Positions 2,866 through 38,869 of a stretch of 40,759 nt of DNA are shown piece after piece. Each line of letters starts with the position of its first letter. The stretch's first letter is position 1. Below the pieces are notes generated by a model. That model did no database searches, was not told the origin of the DNA, and saw only the letters and a program-made list of their open reading frames with translations. Source of the DNA: a virus; IMG/VR virus record IMGVR_UViG_3300028653_000004, positions 1 to 40,759 of that record; one strand, 5' to 3'. A program made the position numbers and the translations under genes.

Positions 2866-3219
2866 ATGAAGCTGATTCTCCCGGGCCAACCGATTCCCGC
2901 AAAGCGCGTGACGCGTCACACGTTATGGATGGCGCGCGATTACTGCGACTTTAAGGAACGTCTGGCCTGGGATTTCAAGCGTAAGGTTAAGGCCCTGGGA
3001 GCTTGGCCGGCAGCACCGATTACCAAAGACATCACCATAAAGCGTCTTGCGTTCTACCGTGAGACCAACCGACGCGCTGACATCGACAACCTGCTTAAAG
3101 GCGTGATGGAGGCCCTGGCCCTGTGCGAATACATAAAGAATGACAAACAGGTGGTGCGCATCACAGACATGACGGTTGAGCACGGCTCAATCGACCCGCG
3201 CATCGAAATCGAACTATGA
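2866..3219 (+). CDS. rusA: RusA-family Holliday junction resolvase (117 aa)
   Basis: RusA enzymes cut four-way DNA junctions as dimers and are common in phage recombination modules. The N-terminus LPGQPIPAKRVTR matches the family opening. The catalytic block is RRADIDNLLKGVMEAL followed by NDKQV, with Asp72, Asp74, Lys78 and Asp93. E. coli RusA has Asp70, Asp72, Lys76 and Asp91, so all four align with a constant two-residue shift, and the length (117 aa) is typical. It probably resolves replication or packaging intermediates together with the upstream SSB. The stop overlaps the next start as ATGA. Confidence 0.88.
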   Translation: MKLILPGQPIPAKRVTRHTLWMARDYCDFKERLAWDFKRKVKALGAWPAAPITKDITIKRLAFYRETNRRADIDNLLKGVMEALALCEYIKNDKQVVRITDMTVEHGSIDPRIEIEL

Positions 3220-3809: not shown

Positions 3810-4292
3810 ATGGACCTGATTTTCCCTCCCCACCACTTCCCGTCTGAGCGCGTCCGGAGCTGGTGGCAAATCAAGCGCGCAGCAAAAGAAATGGAACGCA
3901 TGATTGATGCTGGTGGCTTTGGTGGCAAGCACCCGCAAGCCGCGGCGCTTTCTCACGCCCAGGTCAGTCTTAAACCGCTCTCTTTCTTTGTCATCAACAA
4001 ACTGCTCACCAAATACTTCCACGGGCAGCGCATCATCATTAATGCGCGCATCGCCTCGGCCACCGGACCGGTCGAGTTCCGTGAGGGGTGCATGTCCTAC
4101 CCGATGAACGGCTCGACGAAGACGGACCGCTTTAACGAGGTGTACGTGGTGTACCAACTGCCAACCTGGTACGGCGGCCTTAAGACGGTCCAGCAGAAGC
4201 TCGTGGGTGCGCCGGCGTTCGTGGTGCAGCACGAGACTGACCACGCCAAAGGGCTCCACATTTACGACAAATTTAATTCACCTGTAAAATAA
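3810..4292 (+). CDS. def: Peptide deformylase (160 aa)
   Basis: Peptide deformylase removes the formyl group from new bacterial proteins. Two of its three signature motifs are intact: REGCMSYP with Glu92 and Cys94, and QHETDH with His141, Glu142 and His145, supplying the three metal ligands and the catalytic acid. Motif I is weaker, around GGFGG..AAALSHAQV, but keeps Gln51. Length fits phage and bacterial enzymes. Phage deformylases are known in Vibrio and T5-like phages. This gene ends the early arm, so it may speed maturation of phage proteins late in infection. Confidence 0.88.
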   Translation: MDLIFPPHHFPSERVRSWWQIKRAAKEMERMIDAGGFGGKHPQAAALSHAQVSLKPLSFFVINKLLTKYFHGQRIIINARIASATGPVEFREGCMSYPMNGSTKTDRFNEVYVVYQLPTWYGGLKTVQQKLVGAPAFVVQHETDHAKGLHIYDKFNSPVK

Positions 4293-31079: not shown

Positions 31080-31122
31080 ACGCGCTCCGCGCGAGCCTGG
31101 GGCAGATAGTGGCGTCGCAAAA

Positions 31123-31138
31123 TGTTCCACGTGAAACA
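31123..31138. promoter_or_regulatory. parS partition site
   Basis: TGTTCCACGTGAAACA is an exact match to the bacterial chromosomal parS consensus TGTTNCACGTGAAACA, a 16-bp palindrome bound by ParB. No parA or parB gene is visible in the window, so it most likely recruits host ParB. It abuts a DnaA box. Confidence 0.88.
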
Positions 31139-31264: not shown

Positions 31265-31293
31265 TTGACCGGGAATAGTTTAAAGTGTATACT
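31265..31293 (+). promoter_or_regulatory. Early promoter P1
   Basis: TTGACC, 17 bases, TATACT: each hexamer matches the sigma-70 consensus at five of six positions. It drives the cassette region beginning at 31336. The spacer ends TTTAAAGTG, shared with the 34861 promoter. Confidence 0.8.
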
Positions 31294-31335: not shown

Positions 31336-31354
31336 TTGTACAGTAGAACGGGCG
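31336..31354 (+). repeat. Cassette 1 left arm
   Basis: TTGTACAGTAGAACGGGCG is the exact reverse complement of 32422-32440. The two arms bracket the three genes of cassette 1 and could pair in the mRNA. It lies about 36 bases downstream of the predicted transcription start. Confidence 0.9.
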
Positions 31355-31396
31355 CAAAACGTGCGGGGAGTATTAATACACCTTGAACACTTACGC

Positions 31397-31413
31397 CCGA
31401 GACTGAAAATATG
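31397..31413 (+). promoter_or_regulatory. Cassette leader motif, copy 1
   Basis: CCGAGACTG is followed by AAAAT and the ATG of the first gene. Copies occur before the first gene of cassettes 2, 3 and 4 at a spacing of four to six bases. It is not a Shine-Dalgarno sequence. Confidence 0.75.
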
Positions 31414-31932
31414 CAAATATTCCAAATCACGCGCCGCATCTCAATCGCTTGCGAAAGCGTCGGCACGCGCTCCGGGTTCAAACACGTTGCACGGCTCATG
31501 CTTAACGGGCGAGAGTGCGACGAAACCAAATGTTGCTATCAGAATAGAACATGGGAGCGCTATCAATTCCATGACGTTCTCAACAAACTCGTTACGGGTA
31601 CTAAGAGCCTGAACGATGATGAACGCGCCAAGTGCAAAACGTGGATTGCCAACTATGGCAAAGAGGCCCCAAAGACTGGGCGGGACCAAACAAACCGCGC
31701 GCCGCGCAAAATGGTAAAGACCGAGAGCGGCGCGCTTAAAGCGGTCGCAATGGTCGCGGCAATGGGCGACGTATTCGGCGGTTCGCGCCGGGAGTCGAAC
31801 GACTGGAAAGCGCGAATGCTCAAAGCGGGGTTACAGGGCGCGGGGCTTATAATGCCCGACGACTGGAACACGCTTTCGGAAACGGTCAAAGAGCAACGTT
31901 TGAACGCTGCCATTACCGCGCTGCGCGCTTAA
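31411..31932 (+). CDS. Hypothetical early protein (173 aa)
   Basis: First gene of cassette 1. The N-terminal half includes TRRISIACESVGTRSGFKHVARLM and a cluster ECDETKCCYQN with closely spaced cysteines. The C-terminal half is helical (LKAVAMVAAMGDVF). No family is recognised. As the first early gene behind P1 and the leader motif, it is a candidate host-takeover protein. GC-rich compared with the leader upstream. Confidence 0.65.
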   Translation: MQIFQITRRISIACESVGTRSGFKHVARLMLNGRECDETKCCYQNRTWERYQFHDVLNKLVTGTKSLNDDERAKCKTWIANYGKEAPKTGRDQTNRAPRKMVKTESGALKAVAMVAAMGDVFGGSRRESNDWKARMLKAGLQGAGLIMPDDWNTLSETVKEQRLNAAITALRA

Positions 31933-31935
31933 GAT

Positions 31936-32205
31936 ATGCACATTACCTTTTACAAGGTTATGCAATACGGAACGGCGCGCCGGTACATTACCGAAGCGCT
32001 GGAGCGGCGCGCGATTGCACGGCTCACGGGACGCCAAACAGTTACGCCGGAAGACCTCGAAGCCCTGCACGCGTTGGGCCATACCACGGAGGAGGTATTA
32101 GAAAGCGAAACGGTCGGCGCGCCGCGCTGCGAAACGTGCGGAAAAAATCATAGCGAACTCCATGCTCCCGACTGCGAATTACGCGGTCAACACGCAAGCC
32201 GCTAA
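31936..32205 (+). CDS. Hypothetical protein with C-terminal zinc knuckle (89 aa)
   Basis: The N-terminal part is helical (YITEALERRAIARLTGRQTVTPEDLEALHALG). The C-terminus CETCGKNHSELHAPDC, two cysteines spaced two apart followed by histidines and a distal Cys, could bind a metal. It follows the previous stop by three bases with T at -1. Function unknown. Confidence 0.6.
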   Translation: MHITFYKVMQYGTARRYITEALERRAIARLTGRQTVTPEDLEALHALGHTTEEVLESETVGAPRCETCGKNHSELHAPDCELRGQHASR

Positions 32206-32209
32206 ACCT

Positions 32210-32410
32210 ATGTCTGATTGCACGAAAGACCTCGAGCATCTATTCATTGAACTCGAGCGGCAAGGCTGGCGCGTCCGGCGCGGCAAACATTACTTTGTCT
32301 ACCCGCCGGATAAAACGCTCTCACCCGTTTCAATTCCGATAACAACATCGCGTTATCGCTCATTCCAAAACACGCTGGCACGCCTACGGGCGCGCGGCGC
32401 TAAAGTTTAA
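32210..32410 (+). CDS. HicA-like protein (66 aa)
   Basis: The 66-residue protein has the HicA/YcfA double-stranded RNA-binding-like fold pattern: an N-terminal helix (LEHLFIELERQGW), RRGKHYFVYPP with His27 where HicA toxins have their active histidine, a second strand pair, and SFQNTLARLRARG. HicA toxins cleave mRNA and are blocked by HicB. No HicB candidate lies beside it. Similar lone phage proteins exist. It could be an RNA-binding regulator or an mRNA interferase that degrades host transcripts. Last gene of cassette 1. Confidence 0.62.
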   Translation: MSDCTKDLEHLFIELERQGWRVRRGKHYFVYPPDKTLSPVSIPITTSRYRSFQNTLARLRARGAKV

Positions 32411-32421
32411 ACAAACTCCCC

Positions 32422-32462
32422 CGCCCGTTCTACTGTACAACTTAAGCAAGCCAACACGGGCG
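32422..32462 (+). repeat. Cassette 1 right arm joined to cassette 2 left arm
   Basis: CGCCCGTTCTACTGTACAA (32422-32440) is the exact complement of 31336-31354. One base later, 32442-32462 begins the left arm of cassette 2, which is complementary to 33450-33470 at 20 of 21 positions. The two inner halves CGCCCGT and ACGGGCG can also form a local hairpin, an alternative to the long-range pairings. Confidence 0.88.
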
Positions 32463-32500
32463 ATTCACGCGCGGGGACTTTTACCCTAAACCAAAATCGT

Positions 32501-32516
32501 CCGAGACTGGAATATG
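32501..32516 (+). promoter_or_regulatory. Cassette leader motif, copy 2
   Basis: CCGAGACTGGAAT then ATG. Ten of eleven bases are complementary to TTTCCAGTCTC at 35003-35013. Confidence 0.75.
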
Positions 32517-32897
32517 AAAACGAAAACATCAATCGAAATTGCAAACGAATTCGACATTGAAAGCCACTTGACCGATTGCGACATCTCATACCGCGGCGGG
32601 TTTTTCCGCTGCAATGTCCGGGAACTCTTTCCGAACGTAGATGATGCGATAATGGGAGCCGCTCAGAACTATCTTGGCGGCGGCATTGCGGGAGCTATAC
32701 AGGCCCGCGCGATGTTCACGCCGGATGAACTGAATGCTAAAGAGCTGGAAATTTTCGATGCTCTTAAGCCGCGCATGATTCAGTTTTTCTATAACGTCAA
32801 CAACGGCGGCGGCGATGATTACATGCAAGCCGAGGTTACCGGCGCGGATGCCGGCGGACTTGCCGCCGTTCAAAGAATGCCGGTAAGCGCGTACTAA
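32514..32897 (+). CDS. Hypothetical protein (127 aa)
   Basis: First gene of cassette 2. It has a hydrophobic central stretch (AAQNYLGGGIAGAIQ) and an acidic C-terminal part rich in Gly and Asn (NNGGGDDYMQAEVTGADAGG). No family is recognised; a cytosolic protein is likely, since no clear membrane helix is present. Expressed early, from P1 or its own processed message. Confidence 0.6.
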   Translation: MKTKTSIEIANEFDIESHLTDCDISYRGGFFRCNVRELFPNVDDAIMGAAQNYLGGGIAGAIQARAMFTPDELNAKELEIFDALKPRMIQFFYNVNNGGGDDYMQAEVTGADAGGLAAVQRMPVSAY

Positions 32898-32901
32898 CCC
32901 T

Positions 32902-33111
32902 ATGAAAAAACTTGCATCAATCGCGATTCCCGCGGTTATGGTCTGCATCTTAGCCGCCGGCATCGTTATCGCCGCATCGCGCGGGGTAAAGAACGGCGAA
33001 AAGGCCGAGTGCGAAAGCTGGGCGGCGCAAGCAAAGGAATACCCGTTATTCTTTTCTGCCGACTGGCAAAAAGAGCAATGCCAAACTTATGGCATCGCGC
33101 TAAATAAATAA
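32902..33111 (+). CDS. Small membrane or exported protein (69 aa)
   Basis: The N-terminus is lysine then a hydrophobic helix (SIAIPAVMVCILAAGIVIAA), a membrane anchor or signal peptide. The rest (about 40 residues) has two cysteines and reads ECESWAAQAKEYPLF. It may sit in the periplasm or outer face of the membrane, for example as a superinfection-exclusion protein; no family is recognised. Confidence 0.6.
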   Translation: MKKLASIAIPAVMVCILAAGIVIAASRGVKNGEKAECESWAAQAKEYPLFFSADWQKEQCQTYGIALNK

Positions 33112-33113
33112 CT

Positions 33114-33437
33114 ATGGCTACACCTGTCTACCGAATAATTAAAGAACAAGAAAAAATAATTGCGGCGGCTAAAGAAATTTCTATAATGAAATTCCCAAGC
33201 GTCGAGTCGATTCTTTCTGACGCTGGATACAATCACGAAGCGGGCAAAATCAAAGCTCTTTGCGACGCGGTTGAAAAAATGGCCGACAAAGTAAAAGAAC
33301 GGCTCGAATATCTGCGCGGGGAGCTGCGCTCCGAGCTCATAAGCTATGGCGAACTGGCCGAGCTGCAAAGCCTAGCGGCTCACATTGACCCGTCCGACGT
33401 GGAATTACTGGAAGCGGCGGGAGTCAAAGAAAATTAA
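33114..33437 (+). CDS. Coiled-coil hypothetical protein (107 aa)
   Basis: Largely helical with heptad-like repeats (KEQEKIIAAAKEIS, ALCDAVEKMADKVKERLEYLRGELR), rich in Glu, Lys and Ala. No motif is recognised. Last gene of cassette 2. Confidence 0.6.
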   Translation: MATPVYRIIKEQEKIIAAAKEISIMKFPSVESILSDAGYNHEAGKIKALCDAVEKMADKVKERLEYLRGELRSELISYGELAELQSLAAHIDPSDVELLEAAGVKEN

Positions 33438-33449
33438 CCAAACGTCCCC

Positions 33450-33492
33450 CGCCCGTGCTGGCTTGCTTAAAAAATATCTACACGAACGGGCG
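33450..33492 (+). repeat. Cassette 2 right arm joined to cassette 3 left arm
   Basis: 33450-33470 is complementary to 32442-32462 with one A-C mismatch. 33474-33492, ATATCTACACGAACGGGCG, is complementary to 33975-33993 at 18 of 19 positions, the exception being a possible G-U pair. Both sides carry CGCCCGT and ACGGGCG halves, which can form a local stem. Confidence 0.88.
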
Positions 33493-33519
33493 CATACGGG
33501 CGGGATTATAACCATGCGT

Positions 33520-33536
33520 CCGAGATTGGAAATATG
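33520..33536 (+). promoter_or_regulatory. Cassette leader motif, copy 3
   Basis: CCGAGATTGGAAAT then ATG. GAGATTGGAAA pairs fully with TTTCCAGTCTC if one G-U pair is allowed. Confidence 0.75.
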
Positions 33537-33962
33537 GATAACTTTACATTCATCCGAGACATTGCCAACGGAACGCGCACCAAGCCGGGCCGTTGCGGAC
33601 ATATATTCTATGAAAGCGGCATTGTCTACGATTACGGGTACCATTACATTTTAATGGTAAAAATTGGCAACAAGTGGATATACAACACGCGCAAATATAG
33701 CTCAACAACCGCGCGACACCAAAGCTATGCGCGCCAGTGTTCCGCGTTCGGAATGAACATTCCGAACGTTCAAAACATGGGCGGGCTCTTTGACCTAACA
33801 GCAAAAAATCTCTTGCGCTGGGCGCGGGAAGAGCTTGCACAAAGGGAGAGCGGGATTGCGGACCTTAAGACCACGAACCCACGCGCTAAGCAGCGCACGT
33901 TACGAGAAGAGAACGACGCCGCCGAGGTCGCGCGCACCGTACAATATCTTGAACAGAAGTAA
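33534..33962 (+). CDS. Hypothetical protein (142 aa)
   Basis: The only gene of cassette 3. The N-terminal half is beta-rich and Tyr-rich (FYESGIVYDYGYHYILMVKIGNKW, NTRKYSSTTARHQSY), a pattern I have seen in phage proteins of unknown function. The C-terminal half is helical and charged (AREELAQRESGIADLKTTN). A protein domain of unknown function, possibly acting on host gene expression. Confidence 0.6.
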   Translation: MDNFTFIRDIANGTRTKPGRCGHIFYESGIVYDYGYHYILMVKIGNKWIYNTRKYSSTTARHQSYARQCSAFGMNIPNVQNMGGLFDLTAKNLLRWAREELAQRESGIADLKTTNPRAKQRTLREENDAAEVARTVQYLEQK

Positions 33963-33974
33963 AAATTAATCCCC

Positions 33975-34018
33975 CGTCCGTTCGTGTAGATATAACCCTA
34001 AGACAGGAGCTTTTCCGC
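33975..34018 (+). repeat. Cassette 3 right arm joined to cassette 4 left arm
   Basis: 33975-33993 pairs with 33474-33492 (18 of 19). 33994-34018 begins cassette 4 and is complementary to 34813-34837 at 19 of 25 positions. The abutting arrangement at 33993/33994 repeats the design of the other two junctions. Confidence 0.85.
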
Positions 34019-34035
34019 CGCGACTGGAAAAAATG
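34018..34035 (+). promoter_or_regulatory. Cassette leader motif, copy 4
   Basis: CCGCGACTGGAAAAA then ATG at 34033. It differs from the others by one base in the core, and lies inside the arm region. Confidence 0.65.
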
Positions 34036-34113
34036 CCCCCGATATTTTGCGACGCCAAATTTTTACCAAAAAAAATTGGGTCGGCGTATCAGGGGGTTTT
34101 GCCAAAGTTATGA
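34033..34113 (+). CDS. 26-aa leader peptide
   Basis: The start ATG sits exactly where the leader motif places the first gene of the other cassettes. The 26-residue basic peptide (MPPIFCDAKFLPKKIG...) ends at a TGA that overlaps the next ATG, so translation is probably coupled. It has one cysteine and two lysine pairs. Evidence is leader position and coupling; too short for family comparison. Confidence 0.6.
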   Translation: MPPIFCDAKFLPKKIGSAYQGVLPKL

Positions 34114-34529
34114 ATGAAAATATCAGGACCGCCGAAAATATCGTGGACGAAATCATCAAAGCCAAGAACACTTTTGGTGGCGTCCCCGAAAAACTTAAAT
34201 TCATCGAGGCATGTCAGCGCCGCATCAATGCGGAAGAGAGCCTTGAAACGAAATCGTCCATCTGCGACGAAATGTGCGGCGTGCTCATGGAGGCGTGGCA
34301 GAATAATCCTCTGCTTCCCGAGCCTCTTCATATCAGGGGCTACGCCGCACTTCTGCAATTAATTCAGGAATGGGCGGACGGCGTTGCGGTCGAGAGCAAG
34401 GTCACGAAGGACGAAGTCCTTGCGATTGCCGACGACATTATTGACGAGATGCTTTCCCAAGCAGACGCCAAGGAATTAATGGAAGATGCTTTCCTTACGC
34501 TCTTGGAAGCGAATCGCGCGCACGAATAA
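34110..34529 (+). CDS. Hypothetical helical protein (139 aa)
   Basis: The ATG overlaps the TGA of the 26-aa peptide (ATGA), so it is chosen over an upstream TTG in frame. The protein is helical and acidic, with ICDEMCGVLMEAW and a long acidic C-terminal helix (DEVLAIADDIIDEMLSQADAKELMEDAF). No family is recognised. Its TAA is followed by TATGG for the next gene. Confidence 0.62.
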   Translation: MNENIRTAENIVDEIIKAKNTFGGVPEKLKFIEACQRRINAEESLETKSSICDEMCGVLMEAWQNNPLLPEPLHIRGYAALLQLIQEWADGVAVESKVTKDEVLAIADDIIDEMLSQADAKELMEDAFLTLLEANRAHE

Positions 34530-34530
34530 T

Positions 34531-34803
34531 ATGGGGCGCGTCCAAGCTGCGTTTGAAAGCGTCGTCAACGCGTCTGTTGTACAAGCCGTGGAAAATATTA
34601 ATGCGTTGCCGCACAAAAACAAAAAGGCGTTTCTCATCGAAATAAAATTCGATGCGCCTTACCCACAGACCTGGCACAGCAAAACGATTCAAGCGCGCTC
34701 AGTGGAACGCGCGGTCGTCTTTGCCACGCGAGCGTTTAAGAAAACGCGCCCGCGCAAACGGATGCCGAAGGTTCTCACCTTTCGCACCGAGCAAATTAAT
34801 TAA
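34531..34803 (+). CDS. Small basic protein (90 aa)
   Basis: The N-terminus is helical (VQAAFESVVNASVVQAVENI). The middle is beta-like (KKAFLIEIKFDAP), and the C-terminus is strongly basic (KKTRPRKRMPK), suggesting nucleic-acid binding. The TAATATGG junction fixes the start. Last gene of cassette 4. Confidence 0.6.
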   Translation: MGRVQAAFESVVNASVVQAVENINALPHKNKKAFLIEIKFDAPYPQTWHSKTIQARSVERAVVFATRAFKKTRPRKRMPKVLTFRTEQIN

Positions 34804-34812
34804 TTAAAGTCA

Positions 34813-34837
34813 GCGAAAGAGCTCCATTCTCAGGGTT
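34813..34837 (+). repeat. Cassette 4 right arm
   Basis: GCGAAAGAGCTCC..AGGGTT is complementary to 33994-34018 at 19 of 25 positions, in two blocks of seven or more. It lies between the last cassette gene and the 34861 promoter, so it ends the cassette chain. Confidence 0.75.
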
Positions 34838-34860: not shown

Positions 34861-34889
34861 TTGAAAGTAGTTTTAAAGTGGATTATAGT
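34861..34889 (+). promoter_or_regulatory. Promoter P2 (sigma-70 type)
   Basis: TTGAAA, 17 bases, TATAGT. It drives the leader RNA and the two DNA-binding genes after it. The spacer contains TTTTAAAGTGGA, present as a 12-mer on the minus strand at the late promoter. Confidence 0.8.
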
Positions 34890-38047: not shown

Positions 38048-38072
38048 GGCGCAAGTGTAACGTGCTTGCGCC
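38048..38072 (+). other. Perfect 8-bp hairpin after coiled-coil gene
   Basis: GGCGCAAG/CTTGCGCC with a nine-base loop directly after the stop at 38040. No U-run follows. It shares its last bases with the next hairpin, so the two may be alternatives. Confidence 0.65.
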
Positions 38073-38149
38073 CTCGTGTCGGTATTGACATAACGGCCAA
38101 ATGAGGCACCGCGCCAAATGAGGCGACCTTGTCAATACCAACACGAGGG
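38071..38149 (+). ncRNA. Long hairpin with tandem GCCAAATGAGGC motif
   Basis: CCCTCGTGT..GGTATTGAC pairs with GTCAATACC..ACACGAGGG as 18 pairs with one mismatch. The 41-base loop holds two copies of GCCAAATGAGGC (38096-38107, 38113-38124), each able to form a GCC/GGC hairpin. The two-copy loop suggests protein binding. Confidence 0.65.
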
Positions 38150-38160
38150 TTATTAAAACT

Positions 38161-38445
38161 TTATTTCTTCGAAGCAGCTCGCGCGCCTATTAAATGAAGA
38201 ATTTGGTATCGGCGCATACGAGTCGAAAGCTCGTAGGTGAAAAGGCGGAAGGGGCAAAGCAGACCGGCCATCTAGTCATCCGCTCGTACATCGTCATAGT
38301 TTGCTGGTTGAGGTCTTTTGCTCGCGTGAGCTCTTAAATAACGCGAGGGGCTGGCGCATAAAAGCGTGGCCAACAAGAGAAAAATAAATACGAAGCCAGT
38401 CGCCTGCCCTGTTTTACACAGGGGTGAGCTGCTTCGAAGAAATAA
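38161..38445 (+). ncRNA. Structured RNA 3, closed by a perfect 20-bp stem
   Basis: The 20 bases 38161-38180 are the exact complement of 38426-38445, a very strong closing stem around 245 nt. Internal hairpins include TACGAG(TCGAAAG)CTCGTA, CTCGCG/CGCGAG, and CCCTGT(TTTAC)ACAGGG. Such a stem resembles an RNase III processing site that releases the RNA. Function unknown. Confidence 0.7.
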
Positions 38446-38464
38446 TAATAAAATTTGTCACTTG

Positions 38465-38575
38465 CGTGCTGCGTCTTGGGGCCTAATACGTTTTGTCTCC
38501 AGAGGGGTGGGGTAATTGCCATGAGTATGGAGGCCGTTGCATAAGCCCGAACGCGGCGCAGCACGGAGGTGAGAA
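38465..38575 (+). promoter_or_regulatory. Structured 5' leader with Shine-Dalgarno
   Basis: CGTGCTGCG (38465-38473) pairs with CGCAGCACG (38557-38565), and GGCCT/AGGCC closes an inner domain. The right arm touches GGAGGTGA, the only strong Shine-Dalgarno of the early genes, five bases before the ATG at 38576. It is placed to hide the ribosome site, so a riboswitch or protein-controlled switch is possible. Confidence 0.55.
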
Positions 38576-38869
38576 ATGATAAGCATCGTTGGAGTCGATT
38601 TCCAAACGCACGAGATTCGAAACGTCTCTCCGCAATGGCGCGCTGCGCTCATCCAGTGGCAGCACGACGCGCCGGACGACAAAATGTATTGTTCATTGCA
38701 CGGGAAATGTGAGCCCATCTCGCTCTACGTACCTGAGTCCATCGCGTACAAACGCGACCGAATCGAAGAGCAGCAGTCGCTCTGCGGCGCAATGGAGGAT
38801 GAAGACAGGCGGCGTATCGAACGCGACATCGCCGCCGGGGCAAGGTGCCGCAACAAGCACGGAGGATAA
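38576..38869 (+). CDS. Hypothetical protein (97 aa)
   Basis: The start is supported by a strong GGAGGTGA sequence, exceptional in this genome. The protein begins MISIVGVDFQTHEIRNVSPQWRAAL, has CSLHGKC (a possible Cys-His-Cys metal site) and an acidic-to-basic helical tail. It may be synthesised at a high or switchable level. Role unknown. Confidence 0.65.
   Translation: MISIVGVDFQTHEIRNVSPQWRAALIQWQHDAPDDKMYCSLHGKCEPISLYVPESIAYKRDRIEEQQSLCGAMEDEDRRRIERDIAAGARCRNKHGG

Follow-up and report, generated by a model that had tools for sequence, protein, structure and literature searches.

Tandem stem-closed units in the early operons of uncultured phages: panhandle RNAs in the manner of pre-rRNA?

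Bacterial and phage operons are usually viewed as giving one long RNA that is cut at local sites. The linear 40.8 kb IMG/VR virus record IMGVR_UViG_3300028653_000004 (40,759 nt, hereafter the window) has another layout: at 31336–34837, on its plus strand, four consecutive gene groups are each bracketed by a private pair of complementary arms. Judged from sequence, these arms are selected RNA structures that close each unit of a polycistronic RNA with a stem of its own, since they covary in related phages, their mismatches favour G-U over A-C, they dominate the computed fold of the whole transcript and they recur in tandem in relatives. We propose that in these uncultured phages, perhaps phages of Patescibacteria, early operons consist of tandem stem-closed mRNA and noncoding units that are released as panhandle RNAs, much as pre-rRNA is processed; we give this reading a probability of about 0.55.

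The stem of unit 1 joins 31336–31354 to 32422–32440 without a mismatch (19/19), that of unit 2 joins 32442–32462 to 33450–33470 (20/21, the single mismatch being A-C), and that of unit 3 joins 33474–33492 to 33975–33993 (18/19 plus one G-U). These are the pairs and counts of an original prediction made from the letters of this DNA. Its fourth pair, 33994–34018 with 34813–34837, lies where it was placed, but a recount gives 20/25 plus one G-U instead of 19/25. The units abut as claimed, with junction gaps of 1, 3 and 0 nt, and every arm pair surrounds whole open reading frames (ORFs). In units 1–3 the duplex extends, beyond a left-side bulge of 9–10 nt, by a further 6–7 pairs of unit-specific sequence which the prediction had missed: GGGGAGT (31365–31371) with ACTCCCC (32415–32421) in unit 1, past a 10-nt bulge and present in the minimum free energy (MFE) fold; GGGGAC (32473–32478) with GTCCCC (33444–33449) in unit 2; and GGGATTA (33502–33508) with TAATCCC (33967–33973) in unit 3. 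Apart from a common CGGGCG end in units 1–3, the arms are unlike one another. The chain of units 1–3 scores 55; among 500 Markov shuffles of the early region the best reached 28, so that the dismissal of chance in the original prediction holds. No Rfam family was found in the window at the gathering score, nor at E values up to 10.

How does the long-range pairing fare against other structures? The panhandle is closed in the MFE of each of units 1–4 folded singly. Folded computationally as one transcript of 3550 nt, the region is dominated by the long-range arms, with mean pair probabilities of 0.95, 0.93, 0.91 and 0.81 for units 1–4; over all the whole-transcript foldings the arms reach 0.81–1.00. 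The anatomy of the region supports the polycistronic arrangement that had been supposed. A predicted sigma70-type promoter, TTGACC-N17-TATACT, stands ahead of unit 1 (31265–31293, plus strand, sequence match), and the next, TTGAAA-N17-TATAGT, lies past the chain (34861–34889, likewise). No terminator-like site occurs on the plus strand between these two, and between 31293 and 34861 the plus strand resembles a promoter only once and weakly, where a coding region ends. Promoter-like sites also precede the chains in the related loci L058, L134, L135, L139 and L144.

These loci (L plus a number) were reached through terminase and cassette genes, terminase alignments having led to several dozen related IMG/VR contigs. 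No cultured relative was found among 50,697 GenBank phages with the DNA over 27.0–35.5 kb or with the terminase and the unit 3 protein, and the latter had no match in IMG/VR.

If the arms act as RNA, how should they change between phages? Homologous arms of an mRNA unit align without gaps in L144, L134, L135, L137, L058 and L139, enclosing 0.6–1.2 kb; standard pairs fill 97.4% of the 156 cells, and 21 of the 26 pairs show double compensatory changes. None of 500 shuffles reaches any of five measures of this covariation, and slid controls are paired to 41–56%. The covarying arms are mostly about 1 kb apart, and left arms in most cases pair best with their own right arm. A short noncoding unit behaves alike (95.4% paired, double changes in 12 of 18). 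Both alignments comprise six sequences, hand-anchored at the outer ends. Drift of the arms without compensation, which would have spoken against the original prediction, was thus looked for in relatives, and compensatory changes were found. On the transcript strand the mismatches of 28 units divide into 63 G-U and 22 A-C (p = 5e-6), and a strand-neutral scan gives 83 and 41, the safer figure because some units had been found by G-U-tolerant scoring on the transcript strand. The excess of G-U in both counts points to RNA rather than DNA.

The layout, too, recurs. L058, with 42% terminase identity, has a leader unit followed by five consecutive abutting units on its early strand, and L132 (34% identity) has three tandem units of one gene each; a one-protein search for relatives of L132 returned L132 itself only. 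There are two to four units in L134, L135, L137 and L144, and one in L139. These five loci hold, in one panhandle of 978–1242 nt, orthologues of genes that the window divides between two units, namely (in part) gene X of unit 1 (31411–31932, 173 aa), gene Y of unit 2 (32514–32897, 127 aa) and gene Z of unit 2 (32902–33111, 69 aa, probably a small membrane protein), all on the plus strand. The window having X in one unit and Y and Z in the next, the brackets have been redrawn around shared genes. Conversely, most of the 80 loci at which gene Y was found have no panhandle, stems are missing from several phages that carry gene X, and other lineages with X or Y are mostly stem-free; the stems therefore track certain phage lineages and not genes X and Y. 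Comparable arm pairs number 42 in 179 kb of early regions and 6 in 229 kb of late regions of the phages studied, making early regions about nine times richer. A gapped duplex search with RNAduplex was dropped as too noisy in GC-rich DNA.

Not only genes are enclosed. A leader RNA panhandle of 163–189 nt precedes the mRNA panhandle in L134, L135, L137 and L144 but not in L139, and a noncoding panhandle of 120–181 nt follows it in L134, L135 and L144. In relatives, leader and small noncoding RNAs have closing stems and abut just as the mRNA units do, which makes the likeness to pre-rRNA stems, itself supported by the anatomy, stronger than the original prediction knew. To become free RNAs, such enclosed noncoding units would have to be cut out.

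Several observations on noncoding RNAs stand beside these. A family of 100–180 nt, whose strongly covarying closing stems read TTGTNYYTY... / ...RRGGNNRCAA, has members in L134 (6109–6228), L135 (5944–6068 and 6080–6230), L144 (6051–6231), L147 (3670–3771) and the reverse complement of L058 (15531–15708), the last with no Rfam match. The window itself contains a second tandem chain, apparently noncoding, at 38071–38577 on the plus strand: a hairpin (38071–38149), a 285-nt element with a perfect 20-bp terminal stem (38161–38445) and a third member (38453–38577), with GGAGGTGAG, the ribosome-binding site that serves the following ORF, in its right arm. This chain gave no Rfam match. Nor, at the gathering score, did L058, L068, L091, L059, L003 or L052. 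The leader motif CCGAGAYTGRAAATATG has 44 matches in IMG/VR, none with such arms. Repeated leaders of other kinds were seen as well: AACCCCTCAATAAAAATATG ahead of many early genes in L052 (2200–3900; related phage G001), and AATAAAATTGTATC ahead of ATGs in L121 and L123.

Where do the stems lie relative to the genes? The right arm starts 5–16 nt past the last stop codon in 14 of 16 mRNA units (11, 12 and 12 nt in units 1–3 of the window; the exceptions are 40 and 193 nt), and the left arm ends 15–56 nt ahead of the first ATG in 15 of 16, the exception being window unit 4 with 91 nt. Given these distances, the start sites lie outside the outer duplex. Stems placed thus, at either border of the translated stretch and with the start sites free, argue against a general role in blocking the Shine–Dalgarno (SD) sequence, and SD blocking of the icaR type was rejected as a general mechanism for the window and its relatives on these arm-to-ATG distances.

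We propose the following course of events. A single early transcript from the promoter at 31265–31293 would fold into a string of self-contained domains. Within each, the first 20 or so nucleotides would pair with the last 20 or so, and the loop would carry one to three genes or, in relatives, leader and small noncoding RNAs too. The stems would then be cut close to the junctions by a nuclease specific for double strands, most likely RNase III of the host. This would set free individual mRNAs and small RNAs, as pre-rRNA stems free 16S and 23S RNA; the paired ends of the released RNAs would resist exonucleases and the ribosome-binding sites would stay open in the loop. That the transcript folds into stem-closed units which an RNase III-like nuclease cuts at the junctions we consider probable. 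We infer cleavage from the tandem abutting layout, from the noncoding units closed likewise and from the distribution of RNase III, which is encoded by 71 of 78 genomes in the phylum of the candidate host and was not found in the 19 phage records searched. Its absence from the phages studied is why we favour the host enzyme. Long-range mRNA duplexes in Bacillus subtilis (PMC11780869) and a stem-closed, ORF-bearing segment of Coxiella 23S rRNA (PMC4990558), both taken up below, are published RNase III substrates that speak for the proposal. The host assignment itself is a weak hint of Patescibacteria, from a terminase-related contig in one metagenome-assembled genome (MAG) of Candidatus Levyibacteriota. 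In a related phage, G001 (L003, 2534–5356), the terminase is seemingly interrupted by an intein, one frame of 940 aa having the terminase halves split by an insert.

Against this proposal several points must be set. The host assignment depends on that one contig, and the Levyibacteriota MAG, perhaps incomplete, itself gave no RNase III match. For the arms of the window itself no close homologues turned up, and the mismatches of units 1–4 are too few for the G-U test (two G-U, three A-C). B. subtilis RNase III is reported to cut mRNA duplexes of 10–36 bp whose two sites lie at most 505 nt from each other (PMC11780869), a span shorter than most of the loops here (0.5–1.2 kb). Translating ribosomes could, moreover, delay the pairing of the arms.

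Might the stems then do their work uncut? The principal rival holds that they close gene groups within a long mRNA which stays whole, stabilizing or tuning its segments by protection from decay or by control of translation from the 3' to the 5' end. We regard this as a serious minority possibility, for single pairings between the 5' and 3' untranslated regions (UTRs) are known to have such roles. In icaR mRNA a pairing that includes a UCCCC anti-SD affects RNase action (PMC3868564), and in hbs mRNA a 14-nt pairing protects from RNase Y (PMC7821165). One unit among the relatives, L058 unit C, may be a case of SD pairing, its 3' side presenting TTTCTCC opposite a GGAGGAGAAA leader. However, translation control of this sort is hard to square with arms that do not cover the start site, ending 15–56 nt short of the first ATG in all but one unit of the window, L132 and the L134–L144 group, and uncut stems leave unexplained why noncoding units should be closed and abutted in the same manner.

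A second rival, which we think rather improbable, makes each long stem one state of a switch timed by transcription or translation, the other state being a local hairpin in which the left arm pairs through its inner end with the 5' UTR, or in which the arms that meet at a junction pair with each other. The ACGGGCG in the left arms of units 1–3 can indeed pair with a CGYCCG just ahead of the first gene, and inspection reveals similar hairpins in L134, L135 and L144; in L139, L132 and L058 unit A, however, none is evident by inspection, and the computed ensemble is dominated by the long-range form. Arms acting in DNA, as terminal inverted repeats of mobile cassettes or as inversion or integron-type sites, are very unlikely: although unit-wise brackets look cassette-like and gene grouping varies between phages, the pairs are private to each unit with no repeat common to the elements, homologous arms hold their position and covary, and DNA-level repeats were rejected on the strand-specific preference for G-U over A-C. 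Chance complementarity, the least credible reading, is refuted by the covariation in relatives and by the shuffles.

The genes and other features of the region, the ORFs of units 1–4 all being on the plus strand, are as follows. Gene X, with orthologues in L134, L135, L137, L139 and L144, carries the C-terminal motif NDWKxRMLKAGL..MPDDW; its predicted fold (predicted local distance difference test, pLDDT, 74; predicted template modelling score, pTM, 0.46) had no convincing match in the PDB, nor did a profile search by sequence give one. Unit 1 further contains ORFs of 89 aa (31936–32205) and 82 aa (32162–32410; phrog_2089, a family whose function is not known). Gene Y has homologues in the panhandled L134 and L139 and in panhandle-free phages, gene Z in L058, L134, L135, L139 and L129; a 107-aa ORF (33114–33437) completes unit 2. 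Unit 3 consists of a 142-aa ORF (33534–33962; phrog_7247, likewise of no known function). Unit 4 has ORFs of 139 aa (34110–34529) and 90 aa (34531–34803), and the 5' UTR ahead of the former has a local hairpin of its own at about 34034–34098. This leader hairpin contains one copy (34044–34057) of a 14-nt exact inverted repeat (TGGCGTCGCAAAAT / ATTTTGCGACGCCA), the other lying upstream of the early promoter at 31110–31123. Also upstream of that promoter, 31123–31138 agrees with the parS consensus TGTTnCACGTGnAACA at every position, where shuffles lead one to expect 0 such sites; among the other fetched loci only L216 has one. The window's site adjoins a perfect DnaA box. The window has seven perfect TTATCCACA DnaA boxes (at 877, 14534, 18686, 29541, 29822, 31140 and 34851), against 0.28 expected, and a DnaA box stands shortly ahead of the first arm in L135 and L144 too. 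While the early genes are on the plus strand, the portal protein and large terminase are encoded on the minus strand. Peptide deformylase (3810–4292; Pfam PF01327, E 8e-14) and a RusA resolvase (2866–3219) are also encoded.

What do these stems mean for the organization of a message? Evolution maintains a pairing of about 20–35 bp between points 0.3–1.2 kb apart, for each gene group and through many compensatory changes, and noncoding RNAs are packed in the same stem-closed manner. The data suggest that folding, and perhaps cutting, divides the long message into individually closed mRNAs and small RNAs after the fashion of ribosomal RNA. Should the units be released, the phages would have a modular route from one transcript to several closed RNAs; even otherwise, the stems are a strong example of mRNA structure selected from end to end.

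The nearest counterpart is the 30S precursor of rRNA, in which several abutting domains on one transcript are each closed by complementary flanks of some 20 bp or more, and in which cleavage of double-stranded RNA releases the units, as is likely here. It differs in that the phage units are mRNAs and small noncoding RNAs with private, fast-evolving arms. T7 shares with these phages a polycistronic early RNA, which RNase III cuts into mRNAs, but it does so at local intercistronic hairpins and not at stems that join the ends of a unit. Coxiella burnetii RNase III excises from 23S rRNA an ORF-bearing intervening sequence (IVS) closed by a 28-bp stem (PMC4990558); this resembles the phage units in holding an ORF within a terminal stem, but it is a single rRNA insertion whose RNA is labile, whereas the phage units in tandem form a whole mRNA operon. 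The B. subtilis targets are likewise long-range duplexes within an mRNA, but they are scattered and have not been described as enclosing whole genes in tandem (PMC11780869). In icaR and hbs the two UTRs of one mRNA pair, as they do here, by short pairings in one mRNA each and with no tandem layout (PMC3868564, PMC7821165). In the open-access literature searched, which leaves out most subscription papers, we found no report, for phages or any other source, of stem-closed units arrayed in tandem along an operon of protein genes. Single 5'–3' pairings, the IVS and pre-rRNA stems are thus known; what appears to be new is their counterpart in series, a tandem array of closing stems laid over an mRNA operon.

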